The notes under the pieces are model-generated. The model saw only the letters and a program-made list of their open reading frames with translations. It did no database searches and had not been told where the DNA came from. The position numbers and the translations under genes are program-made. Below are positions 39,037 through 46,912 of a DNA stretch of 46,912 bases, piece by piece. Location: contig CAOKQK010000019.1 of assembly GCA_948470905.1 (NCBI GenBank), forward strand, positions 1 through 46,912, in the 5' to 3' direction. Source of the stretch: an uncultured Lachnospiraceae bacterium. Lineage in GTDB: Bacteria > Bacillota > Clostridia > Lachnospirales > Lachnospiraceae. The stretch's first letter is position 1. Each line of letters begins with the position of its first letter.

Positions 39037-39065
39037 TTGCCATATTATGTAAATTTTGTTATAAT
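39037..39065 (+). promoter_or_regulatory. Sigma-A promoter of the FkbH-ACP-MBOAT cassette
   Basis: TTGCCA (39037-39042), exactly 17 bp, TATAAT (39060-39065). A leader of about 190 nt follows, containing tandem repeats. Confidence 0.75.
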
Positions 39066-39121
39066 TTTCAGGAATTATGGCTTTTTGACGGAACACGGCG
39101 GGAGAGAACTGGATACACGGA

Positions 39122-39240
39122 CGGCCAGAGGTGCAGGGACAGGAAAAGGCAGAAGCACGGGTGGTCACAGGTGCATAGACAGGAAAAAGCAGAAGCACGT
39201 ACTGCCAGAGGTGCAGGGACAGGAAAAGCCAGAGGCACGG
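39122..39240. repeat. Three tandem repeats of about 39 bp in the cassette leader
   Basis: Units resembling GCCAGAGGTGCAGGGACAGG followed by AAAAGGCAGAAGCACG occur three times between the promoter and the start codon. The frame is open through them, but no start codon with a ribosome binding site precedes them. Confidence 0.75.
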
Positions 39241-39264
39241 AGACGGATGGGAGCGCAGGGATAC

Positions 39265-41091
39265 ATGAAAGAACTGGAATATCCGTTTGACGCGGATTGG
39301 ATTCTGAAAAAGAAAAAATCAATACGAAGACAGCTGCTGCAGGGAGTTTGCGGGAAAGACGGTAGCCCGAAGGCGGGCGGTCTGTTTGTGGAGAAAAAGA
39401 TTGCCATCCTGGGCGGGAGCACAACCAATGACATAAAAGATATTCTGGAGCTCTTTCTGCTCAATTATGGGATCATGCCATCCTTTTATGAATCCGAATA
39501 CAACCGCTATTATGAGGATGGAATGTTCCCCAACCCGCAGCTGGAGGAGTTTGCCCCGGATATCGTATATATTCATACATCTAATCGAAATATCAATGAC
39601 TTTCCCACGCTGACGGATTCCAGGGATGACGTTGCAGACAGGCTGAACAGGGTGATGGACAGGTTTCGGAGGCTGTGGGAGCATATTTTCAATACGTATC
39701 ACTGCACGATCATCCAGAATAATTTTGAACCGCCCTTTTATCGGCTGATGGGAAATAAGGACGCGGCGGATTACAGGGGAAGGGTGAATTTCATATCCCG
39801 GCTGAACCTGCTCTTTGCGGAGTATGCGGATACGCATGGCAATTTCTTTCTTCACGATATTCATTATGAGGCGTCTTGTTACGGGCTGGAGAAGTGGTCG
39901 GATCCTTTTTACTGGCACATGTATAAGTATGCCCTGTGTGTGCCGGCGATTCCCTGCCTGGCTTTCCAGCTTGCAAACATTATCAAGTCCATTTTGGGAA
40001 AGAATAAGAAGGTCCTGAACCTGGATCTGGACAATACCCTCTGGGGAGGCGTCATCGGGGATGACGGGATGGAAAATATCGAAATCGGCCAGGAGACTCC
40101 TGTGGGACAGGCTTACGCGGAGTTTCAGGAGTATGTCAGACAGCAGAAGCAGCTGGGCGTGCTGCTCACCGTGAATTCCAAAAATGACATGCAGGTGGCG
40201 GTAACGGGCTTCCAGAGGCAGGATTCCGTCTTGAAAAAAGATGATTTTGTAGCCTTTAAGGCAAACTGGGACCCCAAATCCAGGAATCTTTTGGAGACGG
40301 CAGAGGAGCTGAAGCTGCTGCCGGAGAGTTTTGTCTTTGTGGACGACAATCCGGCGGAGCGGGAGATCATCCGGCAGATGGTGCCCCAGGCTGCGGTTCC
40401 GGAGCTGGGCTCGGCAGAACATTATATACAGGTCCTTGACAGGAGCGGCTTCTTTGAGGTGACGAGTCTTTCGGAGGATGACCTGAAACGCAGCGAGATG
40501 TATCAGGAAAACGCCATGCGCAGGCAGCTGCAGGAGAGCTGTGCCGATTATGGGGAGTATCTGTTGAGCCTTGAGATGAAGGGTGCCATCAGGGCGTTCG
40601 AGCCCCAGTATATGTCGCGCATTTCCCAGCTCACCAACAAGAGCAATCAGTTCAACCTGACAACCCAGCGCTACAGCCAGGCCCAGATAGAGGAGGCGGC
40701 TGCGGACCCGTTTCGGATCACGCTCTACGGCAGGCTGGAAGACAGATTTGGAGACAACGGCGTGGTGAGCGTCATCATAGGCAAAAGGGAGGGCGATACC
40801 CTGCATATCGACCTGTGGCTGATGAGCTGCCGCGTCTTAAAGAGGGACATGGAATTTGCCATGATGGACGAGCTGGTAAGGCGATGCCTGGAGGCGGGGA
40901 TCAAGACCATCAGGGGCTATTATTATCCCACCGCCAAGAACGGCATGGTGAAGGATTTCTATTCCGTGCAGGGCTTTGAAAAAATATCCGGGGACGAGGG
41001 CGGCGCCACGGTTTGGGAATATCCGGTCACAGAGGAGTATGAGGTTAAAAACAGGGTGATCGAGGTAAATGGAAGAAAACCATTTCCATAG
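39265..41091 (+). CDS. FkbH-like HAD-IIIC protein with C-terminal GNAT-like domain
   Basis: A 608-residue multidomain protein. Residues about 45-230 look like an SGNH-type BF1531-like N-domain (AILGGSTTND). The HAD core begins with LDLDNTLWGG (about 253-262), continues with LTVNSKND near 300 and FVDDNPAERE near 357. A GNAT-like acyltransferase domain fills about 430-600. FkbH proteins take 1,3-bisphosphoglycerate, dephosphorylate it and load glycerate onto an acyl carrier protein; the gene 76 bp downstream is a carrier protein. The start ATG is preceded by GGGAG; the frame extends further upstream without a credible start. Confidence 0.85.
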   Translation: MKELEYPFDADWILKKKKSIRRQLLQGVCGKDGSPKAGGLFVEKKIAILGGSTTNDIKDILELFLLNYGIMPSFYESEYNRYYEDGMFPNPQLEEFAPDIVYIHTSNRNINDFPTLTDSRDDVADRLNRVMDRFRRLWEHIFNTYHCTIIQNNFEPPFYRLMGNKDAADYRGRVNFISRLNLLFAEYADTHGNFFLHDIHYEASCYGLEKWSDPFYWHMYKYALCVPAIPCLAFQLANIIKSILGKNKKVLNLDLDNTLWGGVIGDDGMENIEIGQETPVGQAYAEFQEYVRQQKQLGVLLTVNSKNDMQVAVTGFQRQDSVLKKDDFVAFKANWDPKSRNLLETAEELKLLPESFVFVDDNPAEREIIRQMVPQAAVPELGSAEHYIQVLDRSGFFEVTSLSEDDLKRSEMYQENAMRRQLQESCADYGEYLLSLEMKGAIRAFEPQYMSRISQLTNKSNQFNLTTQRYSQAQIEEAAADPFRITLYGRLEDRFGDNGVVSVIIGKREGDTLHIDLWLMSCRVLKRDMEFAMMDELVRRCLEAGIKTIRGYYYPTAKNGMVKDFYSVQGFEKISGDEGGATVWEYPVTEEYEVKNRVIEVNGRKPFP

Positions 41092-41128
41092 AAGAAAACC
41101 ATTTCCATAGAAGAAAAGCATTCCATGA
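41072..41128. repeat. 19-bp tandem repeat at the FkbH stop codon
   Basis: Two exact units of GAAGAAAACCATTTCCATA (41072-41090, 41091-41109) and a third, diverged one (41110-41128). The FkbH stop codon spans the first junction. Confidence 0.8.
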
Positions 41129-41166
41129 AAAAAAAGAGTTCTATGGAGAAGACAGGAGATTATAAA

Positions 41167-41409
41167 ATGACGAGAGAAGAAGTATATGAGAGGCTTACAG
41201 GCGTTTTCAGGGATGTTTTTGACGATGACAGTATCGAGATCAGCGATGAGACGACTGCTGATGACATAGAGGACTGGGATTCCTTTGAGCATATTAACCT
41301 GGTGGTGGCAGTGGAGGATGAATTTTCCTTTAAGATACCCATGGGCAAGGTAGTCACAATGAAAAACGTGGGTGAAATGGTGGATATTATCCTGGATCTG
41401 GGCAGGTAG
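41167..41409 (+). CDS. Acyl carrier protein
   Basis: An 80-residue four-helix carrier protein. The phosphopantetheine attachment site is Ser39 in DWDSFEHINLV, with Phe in place of the common Leu. It is acidic, as usual. The ATG follows ACAGGAG, and MBOAT starts three bases after its stop, so the two are coupled. Here it most likely carries the acyl group made by the FkbH-like enzyme, in the role DltC plays for D-alanine. No fatty acid synthesis genes are nearby. Confidence 0.9.
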   Translation: MTREEVYERLTGVFRDVFDDDSIEISDETTADDIEDWDSFEHINLVVAVEDEFSFKIPMGKVVTMKNVGEMVDIILDLGR

Positions 41410-41412
41410 GGT

Positions 41413-42933
41413 ATGGCAATTACATCGTTTGGATTTTTGTTAATGGTCTGTGCGGGAGGGGCGCTGTATTATATACTGCCAAAGTCCTGGCAGTGGGCGG
41501 AGCTTCTGGTTTTGAGCCTGGTCTTTTACTGTCTTTCGGCGGAGCCTTACACATTTATCTATATCCTGATCTCAACGGCTGCCGCATACATATGTACCTG
41601 TTACGCGGACAGCAGGAGGGCAGAGACAGACAGGGGGAGGAAGGTTGCCGTGGGGCTTGGCGCCGGGGCAGTCCTCCTCAATGTCTTGCTGTGGTTTGTG
41701 CTGAAAGGAGCCGGGCTGTGGATGCCGTTATTCCCCAAGATGGCTTCCATGCCCTTTGTGGCGGCTCTGGGAATGGGATATTATACGCTGCAGATGATCA
41801 GCTATATCCTGGACTGTTACTGGAAAAGTATCCGGCCGCAGAAAAATCCTCTGAAGCTGCTTCTCTTTGCGTGCTTTTTTCCGCAGATGATCACAGGTCC
41901 CATCAGCAGGTACAGCCAGCTGGGCTCTCTGTATGAGAGGCATGTATTCTCCTATGAGAATCTTACCTTTGGGGCGCAGCGGATCCTGTGGGGTTTTTTA
42001 AAGAAGCTGGTACTGGCTGAGCGCGTGGGGATCCTGGTAGATGCGGTCTGGAGCCTGCAGGCGCAGGAGCCGGTATTTTTGTGGATTGCCTTCCTGCTCT
42101 ATCCCATCCAGATGTATTCTGATTTTTCAGGGTGCATGGATATTGTGATCGGCACGGCGGAGGTCTTTGGGGTCAGGCTTCCGGAGAATTTCAACAACCC
42201 CTTTTTTTCCCGGACCATTCAGGAATTCTGGCAGAGGTGGCATATTACTCTGGGGACGTGGGCGAAGGATTATGTTCTTTACCCACTGTTGAAATCAAGA
42301 GGGATGGTGCGCCTGGGAAACCGTGCCAGGAAGAAATTGGGAAAGAGGTACGGGAAATTCGCCGCCACAAGCCTGGGCATGCTGGTGCTCTGGATGGTGC
42401 TGGGCATATGGCATGGCGGCGTGAACCATATCGTGGGAGTGAGCCTGTGGTATTGGGCGCTTTTGATGCTGGGTGAGCTGTGTGCGCCTGGCTTAAAAAA
42501 GCTGACCGCTTTTTTGCGGGTAAACGAGGACAGCTTCAGCTGGCATCTGTTCCAGTCTGCCCGGACCTACCTGATCTATGCGGTTGGCATTGTCTTTTTC
42601 CGGGCGGACAGCGTGGGCAGGGGAATGGCTTTTCTGAAAGACCTGATCGTCGGGACCTTCACCGGGAATCTGCATCTGGAGAAGCTTTTTGACAGGAGCC
42701 TGCTGCAGCTGGGGCTTGGCGCGGCCGACTGGGGTATCCTCCTCATTTGTGTGCTGCTTTTGGTCCTGGCGGCTGTGTTGCGTGAGAGGGACGGGTATGC
42801 CAGGCGATGGGTGGCAAAGCAGATCCTGCCGTTTCGGTGGTTTGTATGGCTGGGAATTTTGCTGGCGGTAGTGATCTGGGGAAAATACGGCGATGAGTAT
42901 AATGCGGTACATTTCATATATCAGATATTCTGA
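41413..42933 (+). CDS. MBOAT family O-acyltransferase (DltB/AlgI-like)
   Basis: A 506-residue enzyme with about 11 transmembrane helices. MITGPISRYSQLG, YSDFSGCMDIVIG, FNNPFFSRTIQEFWQRWHITLGTWAKDYV and the catalytic histidine in LGIWHGG (about residue 335) place it in the AlgI/DltB branch. Such enzymes pass an acyl group across the membrane to a surface polymer. With a carrier protein directly before and an SGNH protein after, the arrangement is that of dltB. The acceptor polymer is unknown. Confidence 0.93.
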   Translation: MAITSFGFLLMVCAGGALYYILPKSWQWAELLVLSLVFYCLSAEPYTFIYILISTAAAYICTCYADSRRAETDRGRKVAVGLGAGAVLLNVLLWFVLKGAGLWMPLFPKMASMPFVAALGMGYYTLQMISYILDCYWKSIRPQKNPLKLLLFACFFPQMITGPISRYSQLGSLYERHVFSYENLTFGAQRILWGFLKKLVLAERVGILVDAVWSLQAQEPVFLWIAFLLYPIQMYSDFSGCMDIVIGTAEVFGVRLPENFNNPFFSRTIQEFWQRWHITLGTWAKDYVLYPLLKSRGMVRLGNRARKKLGKRYGKFAATSLGMLVLWMVLGIWHGGVNHIVGVSLWYWALLMLGELCAPGLKKLTAFLRVNEDSFSWHLFQSARTYLIYAVGIVFFRADSVGRGMAFLKDLIVGTFTGNLHLEKLFDRSLLQLGLGAADWGILLICVLLLVLAAVLRERDGYARRWVAKQILPFRWFVWLGILLAVVIWGKYGDEYNAVHFIYQIF

Positions 42934-43032
42934 GATGGAGATAAGAGATACCGGATGCTTCGGTGCCGGGAAAGAGATATCAGATTCTGGTGCCGAGGAT
43001 GATTTGGAGGATGTTTTGGCGGGAGAAGCGTT

Positions 43033-44043
43033 ATGAGTAAGCGACAGTTTTTGAGCGGCGTTACTTTTCTGTTACTGGCAGCGGCGGTGCTGTGGGGCTG
43101 TTCTGAGATCGCGTTCCGGAATCTGCGCGTGTATGGGGGCCACGAGGGCTTTTATGACTGCGCGCCGGGGACGGTAGATGTGGTCTTTATCGGAGGCAGT
43201 ATGTCCTATGCCGCCTTTTCGCCGGTAGAATTGTATGAGAAGCATGGGATCAGCAGCTATAATCTGGGCACCTCCAACCAGTCCATGCTGGCAGGGTATA
43301 TCTGGGCGCTGGAGGCCGGGGAATATCATGATTATAAGGCGGTGGTGGTGGAGGCTCTGGCGGTTTCCATGTCCCATGGGGAGATCGCTTCGGACATCAG
43401 GTCCCTTTACAGCATGGGGATCAATCATAATTATCTTAAGCTGGCAGGTGTCTATAAGAGGAATTTTTATAAGGTTCTGTTTCCGATTTTTGTATTGCAC
43501 GATGGCTGGGAGATTAATGAGATTACATTTAAACAGAGGGTCAATGAAGACAGCCGGTATCTGCGGGGGTATATCCCCATAGCCAGCGAGGCGGGTGAAA
43601 AATACCGGGTTCCGCTGGTGCAGGGGGATAAGTCTGCAACGGCGTATCTGAAATTTCCCTATCTGGACCGTCTGAGGGAATACTGCGATGAAAACGGCAT
43701 CCAGCTGATCCTGGTCAAGACTCTTATGGCGAGCAATGAGGTGAACTATTGGGATGACGGGCTGCACAACAGGCTGCAGGAATACGCGGATGAATATGGT
43801 ATTCCCTTCCTTGATTTTAACACGGCGGAATACATGGAGGCGGCAGGCCTGGATATTGCCACGGATGTAGCGGAGGATCTCCGGCATATGAATGTCAGCG
43901 GCGCGGGGAAGGTGACAGATTATATGGGGAAATATCTTCTGCAGATGGACAATCTCCAAATAAGGCAGTTTGAGAATCCCCAGATAGGGAGTGATGTCAT
44001 CGAGGGATATCACAGAATCATAGATGAGGTCAGTTCCAGGTAG
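43033..44043 (+). CDS. SGNH-type extracellular protein (DltD/AlgX-like)
   Basis: A 336-residue protein anchored by one N-terminal transmembrane helix (about 8-25), with the rest outside. The catalytic serine lies in FIGGSMSYAAF (about 51-61), with a conserved Asn in LGTSNQSM and the DxxH pair in DLRHMN near residue 282, so the triad appears intact. DltD and AlgX-like SGNH proteins complete acyl transfer to teichoic acid or alginate. Its place directly after MBOAT supports the same role. The start is 13 bases or so after GGAGGATG-like sequence. Confidence 0.85.
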   Translation: MSKRQFLSGVTFLLLAAAVLWGCSEIAFRNLRVYGGHEGFYDCAPGTVDVVFIGGSMSYAAFSPVELYEKHGISSYNLGTSNQSMLAGYIWALEAGEYHDYKAVVVEALAVSMSHGEIASDIRSLYSMGINHNYLKLAGVYKRNFYKVLFPIFVLHDGWEINEITFKQRVNEDSRYLRGYIPIASEAGEKYRVPLVQGDKSATAYLKFPYLDRLREYCDENGIQLILVKTLMASNEVNYWDDGLHNRLQEYADEYGIPFLDFNTAEYMEAAGLDIATDVAEDLRHMNVSGAGKVTDYMGKYLLQMDNLQIRQFENPQIGSDVIEGYHRIIDEVSSR

Positions 44044-44132
44044 GCGGAGAGCATATAAGAGCAAAGGTAACAGTTCAGTGACCTGTCTGAACTGTTACGG
44101 GCAAAGAGAGTTTGGGTGTAGAAAGGCAGTTT

Positions 44133-45851
44133 ATGAAGGCGGATATCGGGAAACGGAAACGATGGATCTGGACGGGGCTGGCTGTTGTGTGCGGGCTCAT
44201 ATGGTCCTGCACCAATTTCGGATATGACTGCGGCTATCAGCTGTCCATGTCCTACCGTTTCCTGCAGGGAGACAGGCTTTTTGTGGAGATGTGGGAGCCT
44301 CATCAGATGTCGGTCTTTCTGCCAGCGGCGTTGATGTGGATCTATATGAACCTGTTCCATACCACGGCGGGCATTGTGGTGTACCTGCAGGTGTGCGGGA
44401 TACTGATCCGCGGAGGACTTGCCTTTTTATTGTACAGAGTGCTGAGGGATGATATTGGCGAGTCTCTGGCTTATTGGCTGGGGCTTTTGTATTTCATGCT
44501 CTCACCGAAGGATTATGCCATACCGGATTTCAGCAACCAGCAGTTGTGGTATATCACGCTGCTTTTCTGCGGTCTGTGGTGCTATCTGAAAAAAGGGAAG
44601 CTTTTTTACCTGGTATGCGGGGCGCTTGCACTGTGCCTGGGAGTTATGGCATATCCCTCCTGTGCCATTATTTTTCCGGGAGTGGTGGTTCTTTTGTTTG
44701 CCTATTCCCCGCACCGTTTAAGAGATATCCTGGTCTTTGCCGGAATATGTGCCGGGGCGGGAGCGGCATTCTGCATTGCGGTACTGCCGGAGCCGGACGT
44801 ATTTAAGGTATGTCTTAAGGGGATGATGGAGTTGGAGCCGACTCATGCGGTAAGCACACTGTCCAAGCTGGTGGCCTATCTGGGCGACAGCCTGGAGGTG
44901 TGTCTCGCGGTGCTGGCGGCGGGAGCGCTGGGCTGGGTGTTGAGTATTGCCGTTCGATTCTTCATGGTAAAAAAAGGCATATCGGCAGGCAGGGGGCAGG
45001 AAACGGACAGACGCTGGGTCTGGCTGATATGCTGCGTGGCCGTGATGCTGGCGGCTTTTCTTGTCAATATCCTCTGTGTCGGACGCCGTGACGCATACGG
45101 AGTAATCTTCCTGAGCCAAGTGGGGGGGGGACTTTCTGCTAAACGGTATCTGAAGGGAAGAAAGAGACAGATCTATATCTGTGGAAGCGTTATCGGCGGA
45201 TTGGAATTTCTTGCCACGTTGATCCTGACGGATCTTCCGCTGACGGTTTCCGTGGTATATGGGCTGCTGGCAATCCTTTTTGCCCTTGTCCCTGTGGAAG
45301 AACAGCTGAAACAAGTTGGAAATGAAGCTGTCAGGAAGTGGATGCACCGCTGTGGTAAGTGCCTGGTGGTCCTTTTGGCGCTGCGGTGTGCCTATACCAG
45401 GGTTCCGCTGACAGGGTTTAGCCAGATAGATTCAAGCCTCTCGGATCTTGCCATAGTCCGCGTGGGACCTGCCATGGGGCTGATCTCCAATGAAGACGGA
45501 GTCTGCGTGCAGCGTGACAGCTATCCGGAATGGCAGGAGCTGATCCGCCCGGATGATAATGTGTGGATTGTGGGGTTTGTGGTCAATAATCTTCAGTATC
45601 TGTACGGAAATGCCCGGGTGGCAGGACCCTCCACCATGTCCACACCCTCTTACAACAATGCCGTCCTGGAATACTGGCGCCTGAATCCGGACAAATATCC
45701 GGATGTGGTCGTGGCGGAAGGGTATCTGGGCGATCTGTCAAATGAGCTGAAAATGAACTCCTGGCTGATGGAATGGCTGGAGGAGGAATATCAGCCGGCG
45801 CGCACGGTGGAGGGGACTTACTGGGTATATTATTTCAGGGAGAAAAGATGA
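44133..45851 (+). CDS. Polytopic membrane protein, probably GT-C glycosyltransferase-like
   Basis: A 572-residue protein with about 11-12 transmembrane helices and a soluble C-terminal domain (about 430-572). The first extracellular loop (NFGYDCGYQLSMSYRFLQGD and EMWEPHQMS) has the acidic and His residues typical of GT-C enzymes that use polyprenyl-phosphate sugars. This fits addition of a sugar to a surface polymer, perhaps the one acylated by the preceding genes. A run of nine G sits in the middle of the frame. The ATG chosen follows AAAGG; an in-frame start at 44112 is also possible. Confidence 0.75.
   Translation: MKADIGKRKRWIWTGLAVVCGLIWSCTNFGYDCGYQLSMSYRFLQGDRLFVEMWEPHQMSVFLPAALMWIYMNLFHTTAGIVVYLQVCGILIRGGLAFLLYRVLRDDIGESLAYWLGLLYFMLSPKDYAIPDFSNQQLWYITLLFCGLWCYLKKGKLFYLVCGALALCLGVMAYPSCAIIFPGVVVLLFAYSPHRLRDILVFAGICAGAGAAFCIAVLPEPDVFKVCLKGMMELEPTHAVSTLSKLVAYLGDSLEVCLAVLAAGALGWVLSIAVRFFMVKKGISAGRGQETDRRWVWLICCVAVMLAAFLVNILCVGRRDAYGVIFLSQVGGGLSAKRYLKGRKRQIYICGSVIGGLEFLATLILTDLPLTVSVVYGLLAILFALVPVEEQLKQVGNEAVRKWMHRCGKCLVVLLALRCAYTRVPLTGFSQIDSSLSDLAIVRVGPAMGLISNEDGVCVQRDSYPEWQELIRPDDNVWIVGFVVNNLQYLYGNARVAGPSTMSTPSYNNAVLEYWRLNPDKYPDVVVAEGYLGDLSNELKMNSWLMEWLEEEYQPARTVEGTYWVYYFREKR
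45122..45130 (+). repeat. Homopolymer tract of nine G within the GT-C-like gene
   Basis: Nine consecutive G encode Val-Gly-Gly-Gly at about residues 330-333. Loss or gain of one G would frameshift the protein before its C-terminal domain. This is the longest G run I noticed in the window. Confidence 0.9.
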
Positions 45852-45897: not shown

Positions 45898-46395
45898 TCA
45901 CGCGGTCAGATATGCCCGCATGGTTTTCAGCGCATTTTTCTCCAGCCGCGACACCTGTGCCTGCGAGATGCCGATAGATTCCGCCACCTCCATCTGGGTC
46001 CTGCCCTCGAAGAAGCGCAGGGAGATGATCTCGTGTTCACGCGGGGACAGGCGCTTCATGGCTTCGCTTAAGGAGAGGTGCTCTACCCAGGTTTCCTCTT
46101 TATTTTTTTTGTCGCTGATCTGATCCATCACATAGAGTGTGTCGCCGCCATCCGTAAAAATGGGCTCGTAAAGGCTCATGGGATTCTGGATAGCATCCAG
46201 GGCATAGGCAATATCCTCCTTTGAGATGCCGATTTCGCCGGCAATCTCCTCAATGGAAGGCTCTTTTAAGTTACGCCTGGTCAGGGCTTCTCTGGCATAG
46301 ATCGCCTTATAGGCGGTGTCCTTCAGGGAGCGGGAGATGCGCAGGGTACTGTTGTCCCGCAGGAACCGGCGGATTTCACCGATGATCATCGGGAT
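45898..46395 (-). pseudogene. sigG: sigG 3' portion, interrupted (sigma-G)
   Basis: The last about 166 codons of forespore sigma-G. Homology begins abruptly at PMIIGEIRRFLRDN, equivalent to about residue 97 of the usual about 257. It continues to the normal end through YALDAIQNPMSLYEPIFTDGGD and SQAQVSRLEKNALKTM. The about 95 missing residues (region 2.1 to the start of 2.4) are replaced by unrelated sequence. ALDAIQ and the VMDQISD stretch distinguish it from sigma-F. It is either a remnant or one half of a gene split by an inserted element. It is inverted relative to sigE. Confidence 0.85.
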
Positions 46396-46433
46396 GAACG
46401 CACTGTGTCGAAAATCCCGGAGAGGAGGAAGCA

Positions 46434-46912
46434 ATGACAAGGAAACAGGCGGCTTTGAGGGCAATCGGGCTACTATCCGGCAGCGAGGAAAACCGAGAGA
46501 TATGCGAGGCTTTGGAGAGGATAGCAGGGGGAAAGCTGTCGCAGGATTGGAATTGTGAACTGGCATTGGAGGCAATCAGGGATTTCATTGATGAAAATGG
46601 TTATTATCCCACGGCGAAAGAGATGGATCTTGATGCAAGGATGCCGGCACATGCCTCTCTGAAGCTTGCTGCCGGAATGTGCTATACAAAGGTAAAAGAG
46701 GCATATTTCCCGGATGTGCCCACAAAGGCTGAAAAAGAGAAGGGAACCGCGCAAGGCTGGCTGGAAGATTTCAAAACGGTGTTTATGGAAATGGGTAGGC
46801 CGTCCGAAAAGGGATTTAACAGGGACAGGGACGCCCGGGTACCCCATGCAGCCACCTGGATCAAAAGAACGGGAAGCACATCCTGGAGTGATATGCTCAG
46901 AAAATGCGGTTT
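46434..46912 (+). CDS. Unknown protein, possibly on an inserted element, 3' end beyond window
   Basis: 159 codons are visible and the frame is open at the edge. The ATG follows GAGGAGG. The protein is charged, with an Ala/Leu-rich helical N-terminus, then a segment (ALEAIRDFIDENGYYPTAKEMD) resembling the homing-endonuclease-associated or phage-type helix-turn-helix repeats seen in mobile elements; a second similar unit may follow near residue 110. It starts about 40 bp from the point where sigG breaks off, so it may belong to the element that interrupts sigG. Family assignment is tentative. Confidence 0.55.
   Translation, partial: MTRKQAALRAIGLLSGSEENREICEALERIAGGKLSQDWNCELALEAIRDFIDENGYYPTAKEMDLDARMPAHASLKLAAGMCYTKVKEAYFPDVPTKAEKEKGTAQGWLEDFKTVFMEMGRPSEKGFNRDRDARVPHAATWIKRTGSTSWSDMLRKCG

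Follow-up and report, generated by a model that had tools for sequence, protein, structure and literature searches.

Which enzyme charges the carrier protein of a Dlt-like surface acylation cassette that has no DltA? The question is raised by a locus of an uncultured Lachnospiraceae bacterium (assembly GCA_948470905.1, a 3.7-Mb genome that is about 90% complete) in which an FkbH-type gene stands ahead of genes for a stand-alone acyl carrier protein (ACP), a DltB-like MBOAT protein and an SGNH protein. The locus lies on contig 19 (CAOKQK010000019.1), whose 46,912 nucleotides are called the window here and were listed for open reading frames (ORFs) of at least 60 amino acids. A preliminary description of the window had placed FkbH in the position that DltA holds in the Dlt system. 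Our analysis points the same way: the cassette probably serves carrier-dependent surface O-acylation by the MBOAT and SGNH proteins, its carrier being charged by FkbH instead of a DltA-type ligase and the acyl group being glyceryl.

Five ORFs are present on the forward strand at 39265-45851, in the order that had been described. The first four are real and look like one unit; the fifth, a membrane protein gene, is treated with the flanks. The features of the four-gene cassette are:

39265..41091, forward strand: FkbH-type loader, 608 amino acids, recognised by TIGR01686, FkbH_N and conserved residues; SGNH-like N-terminal part at about residues 41-245, HAD phosphatase part with DLDNT (D254, D256, T258), GNAT-like C-terminal part with the invariant C522
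41167..41409, forward strand: stand-alone ACP, 80 amino acids (94 from the ATG at 41125), with the phosphopantetheine serine in WDS
41413..42933, forward strand: DltB-like MBOAT, 506 amino acids, with H334, recognised by Pfam MBOAT and by its DltB-like score
42913..42930, forward strand: codons of FIYQIF, a match to the FXYXXF acyl-shuttle motif at the MBOAT C-terminus
43033..44043, forward strand: SGNH acyltransferase-like protein, 336 amino acids, with an N-terminal hydrophobic anchor and S56/H285/N287, recognised by AlphaFold2 fold and residues

The loader belongs to the FkbH family with 285 bits against TIGR01686 (cut-off 146.65) and carries an FkbH_N domain at 35.7 bits (cut-off 27); it is the only FkbH of its genome. 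The DxDxT motif of the HAD part and the C-terminal cysteine are invariant in 81 of 81 and in 10 of 10 aligned FkbH rows, these residues being the same family-wide, and we take Cys522 to be the acyl-carrying residue. Glyceryl loading has been proven in vitro for other FkbH proteins, which also provide the mechanism assumed here. The available part of PMC7489565 assigns to FkbH proteins, as "likely", the formation of glyceryl from 1,3-bisphosphoglycerate. The ACP scores 23.3 bits against PP-binding (cut-off 20.8), and the 80 amino acids obtained with the ATG at 41167 equal the median ACP length in relatives. The gap between FkbH and ACP is 33 nucleotides, or 75 with this start, followed by gaps of 3 nucleotides between ACP and MBOAT and of 99 between MBOAT and SGNH genes.

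The MBOAT reaches 48 bits against Pfam MBOAT (cut-off 27) and 139.5 bits against the DltB equivalog TIGR04091, below the cut-off of 375 and thus outside DltB proper. Its sole solved relative by sequence is nevertheless DltB (E 2.5e-20). The protein ends in FIYQIF, of the FXYXXF "acyl shuttle" type that is defined for DltX and PatA in the part of PMC12148441 available to us, and such an ending is found in 65 of 69 MBOATs of relatives. The shuttle motif is therefore fused to the MBOAT C-terminus as in PatA, whereas Dlt has a separate DltX. An SGNH-fold partner with the Ser and His residues accompanies it, again as in PatA/PatB-type systems. By sequence this partner is weak (Lipase_GDSL_2 at 19.8 bits, below the cut-off of 32.9) and gives no match to the DltD family PF04914 at E 0.1, but its AlphaFold2 model has an SGNH fold with a mean pLDDT of 83.5. 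Foldseek searches with this model returned the DltD structures 6pfx and 3bma weakly, at E 1.8e-3 and 1.8e-2.

From these parts we infer the direction of transfer. Cys522 of FkbH would take the 3-phosphoglyceryl group of 1,3-bisphosphoglycerate, the HAD domain would remove the phosphate, and glyceryl would pass from FkbH to the phosphopantetheine arm of ACP. Next, the MBOAT would carry glyceryl through the membrane and load it on Tyr503, in the FIYQIF at its C-terminus. There the anchored SGNH protein would pick it up with Ser56 and esterify a hydroxyl group of a polymer outside the cell, for which a surface polysaccharide is the best candidate.

Recurrence in relatives and alternative loaders

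If the four genes form a unit they should be found together elsewhere. We compared the best 80 of 432 matched stretches, ranked by similarity to the window FkbH; many of these loci come from related metagenome-assembled genomes (MAGs), so that the counts are not independent, and the named relatives of the window genome among them are mostly Lachnospiraceae. On the same strand as FkbH, an ACP lies within 4 kb in 73 of the 80 loci and an MBOAT within 6 kb in 59. A subset of 53 loci has at least 6 kb of flank downstream and at least 3 kb upstream, the other 27 being excluded for short flanks, and here ACP is found in 49 and MBOAT in 42 (same strand, within 6 kb). No ACP was seen in the mapped stretch of L045, L051 (cut by a contig end), L111, L116, L117 and L119, while in L059 it lies at 4.1 kb, just beyond the distance counted. 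The closest whole cassette examined, L127, has the same gene order, with identities of 69% for FkbH, 72% for ACP, 58% for MBOAT and 62% for the SGNH protein. Of the five-gene order that had been described, FkbH, ACP and MBOAT thus recur together in relatives, the SGNH protein less regularly, and the fifth gene is found apart from the cassette.

FkbH was also counted genome by genome. Among 146 genomes drawn as relatives a match was obtained in 61, near full-length and at least 55% identical in 17 (the window genome included, and with one copy, in G138, that has an internal stop); among 398 genomes drawn across the phylum there were matches in 15, at 61% or more in 4, again with the window genome included. 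In a quick tree of 30 FkbHs of the cassette subfamily and 10 distant ones, the subfamily falls on one side of a branch with an SH-like approximate likelihood-ratio test (SH-aLRT) value of 97.

Distant FkbHs keep other company. A control set of 12 loci from the same genus (L128-L139), with FkbHs that are 33-40% identical, has an ACP partner in 10 and an MBOAT in none, in stretches of unequal length of which some end close to FkbH at contig ends. Such pairs are what would be expected if FkbH and ACP fed a cytoplasmic path, for instance sugar N-acylation or a small molecule, and the MBOAT and SGNH proteins were an ordinary acyl-CoA-dependent O-acetylation system beside it. In the same direction point nine of the 80 loci (L060, L067, L071, L086, L103, L105, L110, L114 and L118), where FkbH and ACP directly precede pfkA, the gene of 6-phosphofructokinase, and the stretch mapped, in some of them a short one, holds no MBOAT. 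As an aside, pfkA places a glycolytic gene next to an enzyme whose presumed substrate is itself a glycolytic intermediate.

The MBOATs themselves speak against such a division. In 25 genomes we found 73 MBOATs (75 rows, two of which are second pieces), 9 of them low-scoring, with less than 60 bits (as much as 63 where two pieces are joined), and 64 high-scoring. Three of the low-scoring proteins stand in FkbH cassettes (the window, L059 of the commensal strain GAM79, which has a transketolase module, and L075) and four in cassettes with a ligase and a racemase; the remaining two run into contig ends, an ACP being present with one of them. An ACP adjoins eight of the nine, the ninth being cut by a contig end, whereas none was seen beside 19 of the 64 high-scoring MBOATs that were checked by BLAST over about 4-5 kb or more per side, a search that can miss short divergent ACPs. 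Since the low-scoring MBOATs adjoin an ACP and the 19 checked high-scoring ones do not, the former have the look of a chassis that works with a carrier and accepts either of two loaders. With ACP and MBOAT only 3 nucleotides apart in the window as well, we regard the cytoplasmic path as improbable for this cassette.

The second loader can be seen in the same genome. Of its four DltA-like matches none reaches the cut-off for DltA (TIGR01734, 560 bits). On contig 11 a sister cassette (L121, 4085-10792; G000:C11) encodes, in one direction, a ligase, a carrier, an MBOAT, a transglutaminase-like protein, a racemase and an SGNH protein; the ligase is amino-acid-adenylating and scores 286.6 bits against TIGR01734, the MBOAT is DltB-like and ends in FIYNRF, and the racemase is of the Asp/Glu family. 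Cassettes of this type are also present in three genus mates (L205, L208 and L209). This arrangement suggests a D-amino-acid surface acylation other than classical Dlt, on the same carrier, MBOAT and SGNH chassis as the FkbH cassette but with an adenylating loader and a racemase in place of FkbH. The other strong DltA-like ligase, on contig 26 (L122, 8214-10054; G000:C26; 318 bits), has its own 77-amino-acid carrier, no MBOAT match in its 13 kb stretch, and rimP/nusA-like genes (named by eye) just downstream.

Could one of these two ligases charge the ACP of the window with an amino acid, FkbH being unrelated to the MBOAT/SGNH pair? Their existence, and the racemase on contig 11, would allow it. 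Each has a carrier of its own, however, and the ligase of contig 11 is further provided with an MBOAT and an SGNH gene; FkbH and ACP occur together in the 73 loci counted above, and a ligase match was met in only 1 of the 80, weak and 8 kb off. We consider this explanation very improbable, and a dltA elsewhere as the simplest loader was rejected, both strong ligases having adjoining carriers. A dltA elsewhere is therefore unlikely to serve the cassette, and with no adenylating ligase beside FkbH in the window cassette, the conserved linkage of FkbH, ACP and MBOAT and the sister cassette, the placing of FkbH in the position of DltA within a Dlt-like carrier, MBOAT and SGNH machine is supported.

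Several observations weigh on the other side of surface acylation by an FkbH-charged carrier. Co-occurrence of the SGNH protein is weak: the cluster that matches the window protein is found in 19 of the 53 well-flanked loci, or 37 with three further clusters (one with a Pfam GDSL match, two named by eye without a Pfam match), and SGNH-type matches also occur in 7 of the 12 control loci. The window SGNH protein is 19-29% identical to 16 aligned SGNH proteins of related cassettes and could hydrolyse instead of transfer. A same-strand MBOAT within 6 kb is absent from 21 of the 80 loci, some of them cut by contig ends, and from 11 of the 53. In the pfkA loci, FkbH and ACP may stand apart from the MBOAT or act in a different path, and charging of the cassette ACP by the DltA-like ligases elsewhere is conceivable in principle. 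Finally, identity between this FkbH subfamily and the FkbHs found outside it does not exceed 40%, so that the acyl substrate of the subfamily may differ.

The acyl group and the target polymer

This last point leads to the nature of the acyl group. Glyceryl is predicted by analogy with the known FkbH enzymes, and a modification tied to glycolytic flux, as the preliminary description put it, would follow from it in turn. The accessory genes of relatives, whose families were named from one scanned representative per cluster, suggest that the group may vary. In the 53 loci we found a MaoC-type dehydratase 18 times, a short-chain dehydrogenase/reductase (SDR) 11 times, a split transketolase 9 times, an aldo/keto reductase 6 times and a methylmalonyl-epimerase-like VOC protein 4 times on the same strand and 7 times on the opposite one. 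In L078, L079, L080, L090, L094, L100, L108 and L120 the presumed operon is split by a VOC gene that lies between ACP and MBOAT in opposite orientation. Mapped on a tree of 57 MBOATs, the module labels take 20 changes, where shuffled labels average 30.6 and 0 of 200 shuffles reached so low a count. Taken singly, transketolase shows strong clustering (4 changes, equalled in 0 of 500 shuffles) and SDR none (9 changes, a count as low arising in 77 of 500). We suggest that relatives keep FkbH, ACP and MBOAT as a fixed core and that exchangeable enzymes modify the acyl group, candidate edits being glyceryl to pyruvyl to lactyl (MaoC and SDR) or epimerisation at C2 (VOC protein).

For the window an acyl group other than glyceryl is unlikely, if a good deal less so than the two alternatives above. 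It would require a different phosphorylated acid as the substrate of this FkbH subfamily, or a conversion of glyceryl-ACP before transfer. The frequency of MaoC, SDR, transketolase and VOC genes would fit this, as would the clustering of modules on the MBOAT tree, expected if each MBOAT is matched to its acyl group, and pathways that modify glyceryl-ACP are described, as for methoxymalonyl-ACP in the part of PMC7489565 that was available. The SDR label, on the other hand, shows no clustering of its own, the FkbH residues do not deviate from the family pattern, and there are no tailoring enzymes in the window cassette; unmodified D-glyceryl is therefore the expected product.

As to the acceptor, teichoic acid and exopolysaccharide had both been named. 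The cassette, together with accessory genes (VOC; MaoC and SDR), is also present on two contigs labelled Spirochaetota (L092 and L099), possibly through transfer between phyla or because the MAGs are mislabelled. Teichoic acid is unexpected in Spirochaetota. Polysaccharide genes lie near the loci of some relatives: counted over the 80 loci, there are clusters represented by DegT aminotransferases (12 loci), PMT/DUF2142 membrane proteins (9), group-1 glycosyltransferases (6), cytidylyltransferases (6), CapD-like proteins (5) and NeuB (5), with none among the four scanned flanking ORFs of the window. Because of the Spirochaetota contigs and these neighbouring genes, teichoic acid loses ground and a surface polysaccharide is the likelier guess. 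Glyceric acid is reported on a polymer of C. difficile in the available part of PMC10642750, where it is not stated to be an ester-linked side group; among the titles listed on the subject, no account of glycerate esters on Lachnospiraceae polymers came up.

Boundaries of the unit and its flanks

The cassette is located between a VanZ-like gene that follows sigE and the gene at 44112-45851. The further features of the region are:

39037..39065, forward strand: promoter-like TTGCCA-17-TATAAT with TG ahead of the -10, 11 of 12 matches
39116..39241, forward strand: tandem repeat of 40 bp x 3.2, from the promoter-like site to the FkbH start
41072..41134, forward strand: tandem repeat of 19 bp x 3.4, across the FkbH stop and the ACP leader
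44067..44098, no strand assigned: 12-pair hairpin between the SGNH gene and the next ORF, terminator-like by scoring on the reverse strand only
44112..45851, forward strand: multi-pass membrane protein of 579 residues, of no known family, a neighbour outside the cassette

The unit had been placed behind one strong promoter. The site at 39037 is a good match, but the region holds 11 promoter-like sites against 7.9 +/- 3.1 expected, near chance, and the claim is weakened accordingly. The 40-bp and 19-bp repeats are possible sites of copy-number variation affecting expression, and the hairpin is a possible boundary of the unit.

Beyond the hairpin, the membrane protein had been counted as a fifth cassette member and called GT-C-like. 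Its product has no Pfam or NCBIfam match, which leaves the GT-C label unproven, and membership was rejected. Relatives of the gene were found in 13 regions of genus mates, 11 at 53-57% identity and two at 38 and 43%, and none of the 13 regions has an FkbH, ACP, MBOAT or SGNH match; nor is there an FkbH of the cassette type in these 13 genomes. In 5 of the 13 regions sigG adjoins the relative or lies about 6 kb off. Weaker relatives (26-32%) are present in some cassette-bearing genomes.

In this genome, sigG is split. Its C-terminal part (profile positions 92-253) lies at 45910-46395 on the reverse strand, within the region 45898-46912, and its N-terminal part (profile positions 2-95) on contig 59 (L204, 10550-12253; G000:C59), directly followed by the gene of a 452-amino-acid serine recombinase and further on by a rifampin ADP-ribosyltransferase-like gene. 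No intact sigG was found in the assembly, about 90% complete as it is; genus mates do carry sigG-like genes close to this site. The arrangement looks like a skin-type element in sigG. The sporulation genes named as interrupted in the available part of PMC10747680 are sigK, spsM, spoVFB, gerE and yabG, without sigG among them. Excision of a sigG element in the forespore would strip the element from the offspring, unlike that of sigK in the mother cell.

Relation to known acylation systems

How does the FkbH cassette stand to systems already known? With Dlt (DltA-DltC-DltB-DltX-DltD), which D-alanylates teichoic acid, it shares a stand-alone carrier, a DltB-like MBOAT, an extracytoplasmic SGNH protein and a tyrosine shuttle motif. 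It differs in its loader, FkbH against the AMP-forming ligase DltA, and in the fusion of the motif to the MBOAT, by which a separate DltX would not be needed, although a DltX could be shorter than the 60 amino acids at which the ORF list starts. We set it apart from Dlt because it has no DltA, its MBOAT falls below the DltB cut-off and its SGNH protein gives no DltD family match. PatA/PatB-like MBOAT/SGNH systems for O-acetylation use an acyl-CoA donor and no carrier protein according to the available part of PMC12148441, whereas here carrier and loader are encoded in the cassette, the ACP gene ending 3 nucleotides upstream of the MBOAT. The FkbH/ACP pairs that load glyceryl in tetronate, methoxymalonyl and some peptide pathways resemble ours in having an FkbH with HAD and GNAT parts beside a stand-alone ACP; the cassette has no adjoining polyketide or peptide synthase, and its acyl-ACP would go to a membrane acyltransferase instead.

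In the literature searched, with bioRxiv outside its coverage and few subscription papers within it, we found no description of MBOAT/SGNH surface acylation charged by FkbH, and no match for MBOAT, acyl carrier protein and SGNH together. The parts available of PMC12148441, PMC7489565, PMC13122637, PMC7099621 and PMC10642750 do not pair an FkbH with a DltB-like MBOAT for surface acylation. FkbH and MBOAT are mentioned together in papers on cyanobacterial peptides and natural products, in one of which FkbH is a synthase-loading domain while the MBOAT adds an acyl group to a sugar of the product; an FkbH-domain gene is likewise named in a Campylobacter flagellar-glycan locus.

A wider view may be taken more tentatively, at somewhat less than even odds. 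Lachnospiraceae would widely share a chassis of carrier, shuttle-tailed MBOAT and SGNH protein with interchangeable loaders: for amino acids an adenylating ligase accompanied by a racemase, or else FkbH acting on 1,3-bisphosphoglycerate. The FkbH branch would glycerylate a surface polysaccharide, with the acyl group edited in relatives, and would be free of ligase ATP and coupled to glycolysis. In combining a carrier with a fused shuttle motif, the cassette suggests that carrier use and a separate DltX need not go together. If our reading is true, carrier-dependent MBOAT/SGNH acylation would extend beyond D-alanine and FkbH would gain a role outside antibiotic biosynthesis. Gut commensals would then carry a chemically new class of surface decoration, made of neutral hydroxyacyl esters derived from a glycolytic intermediate.

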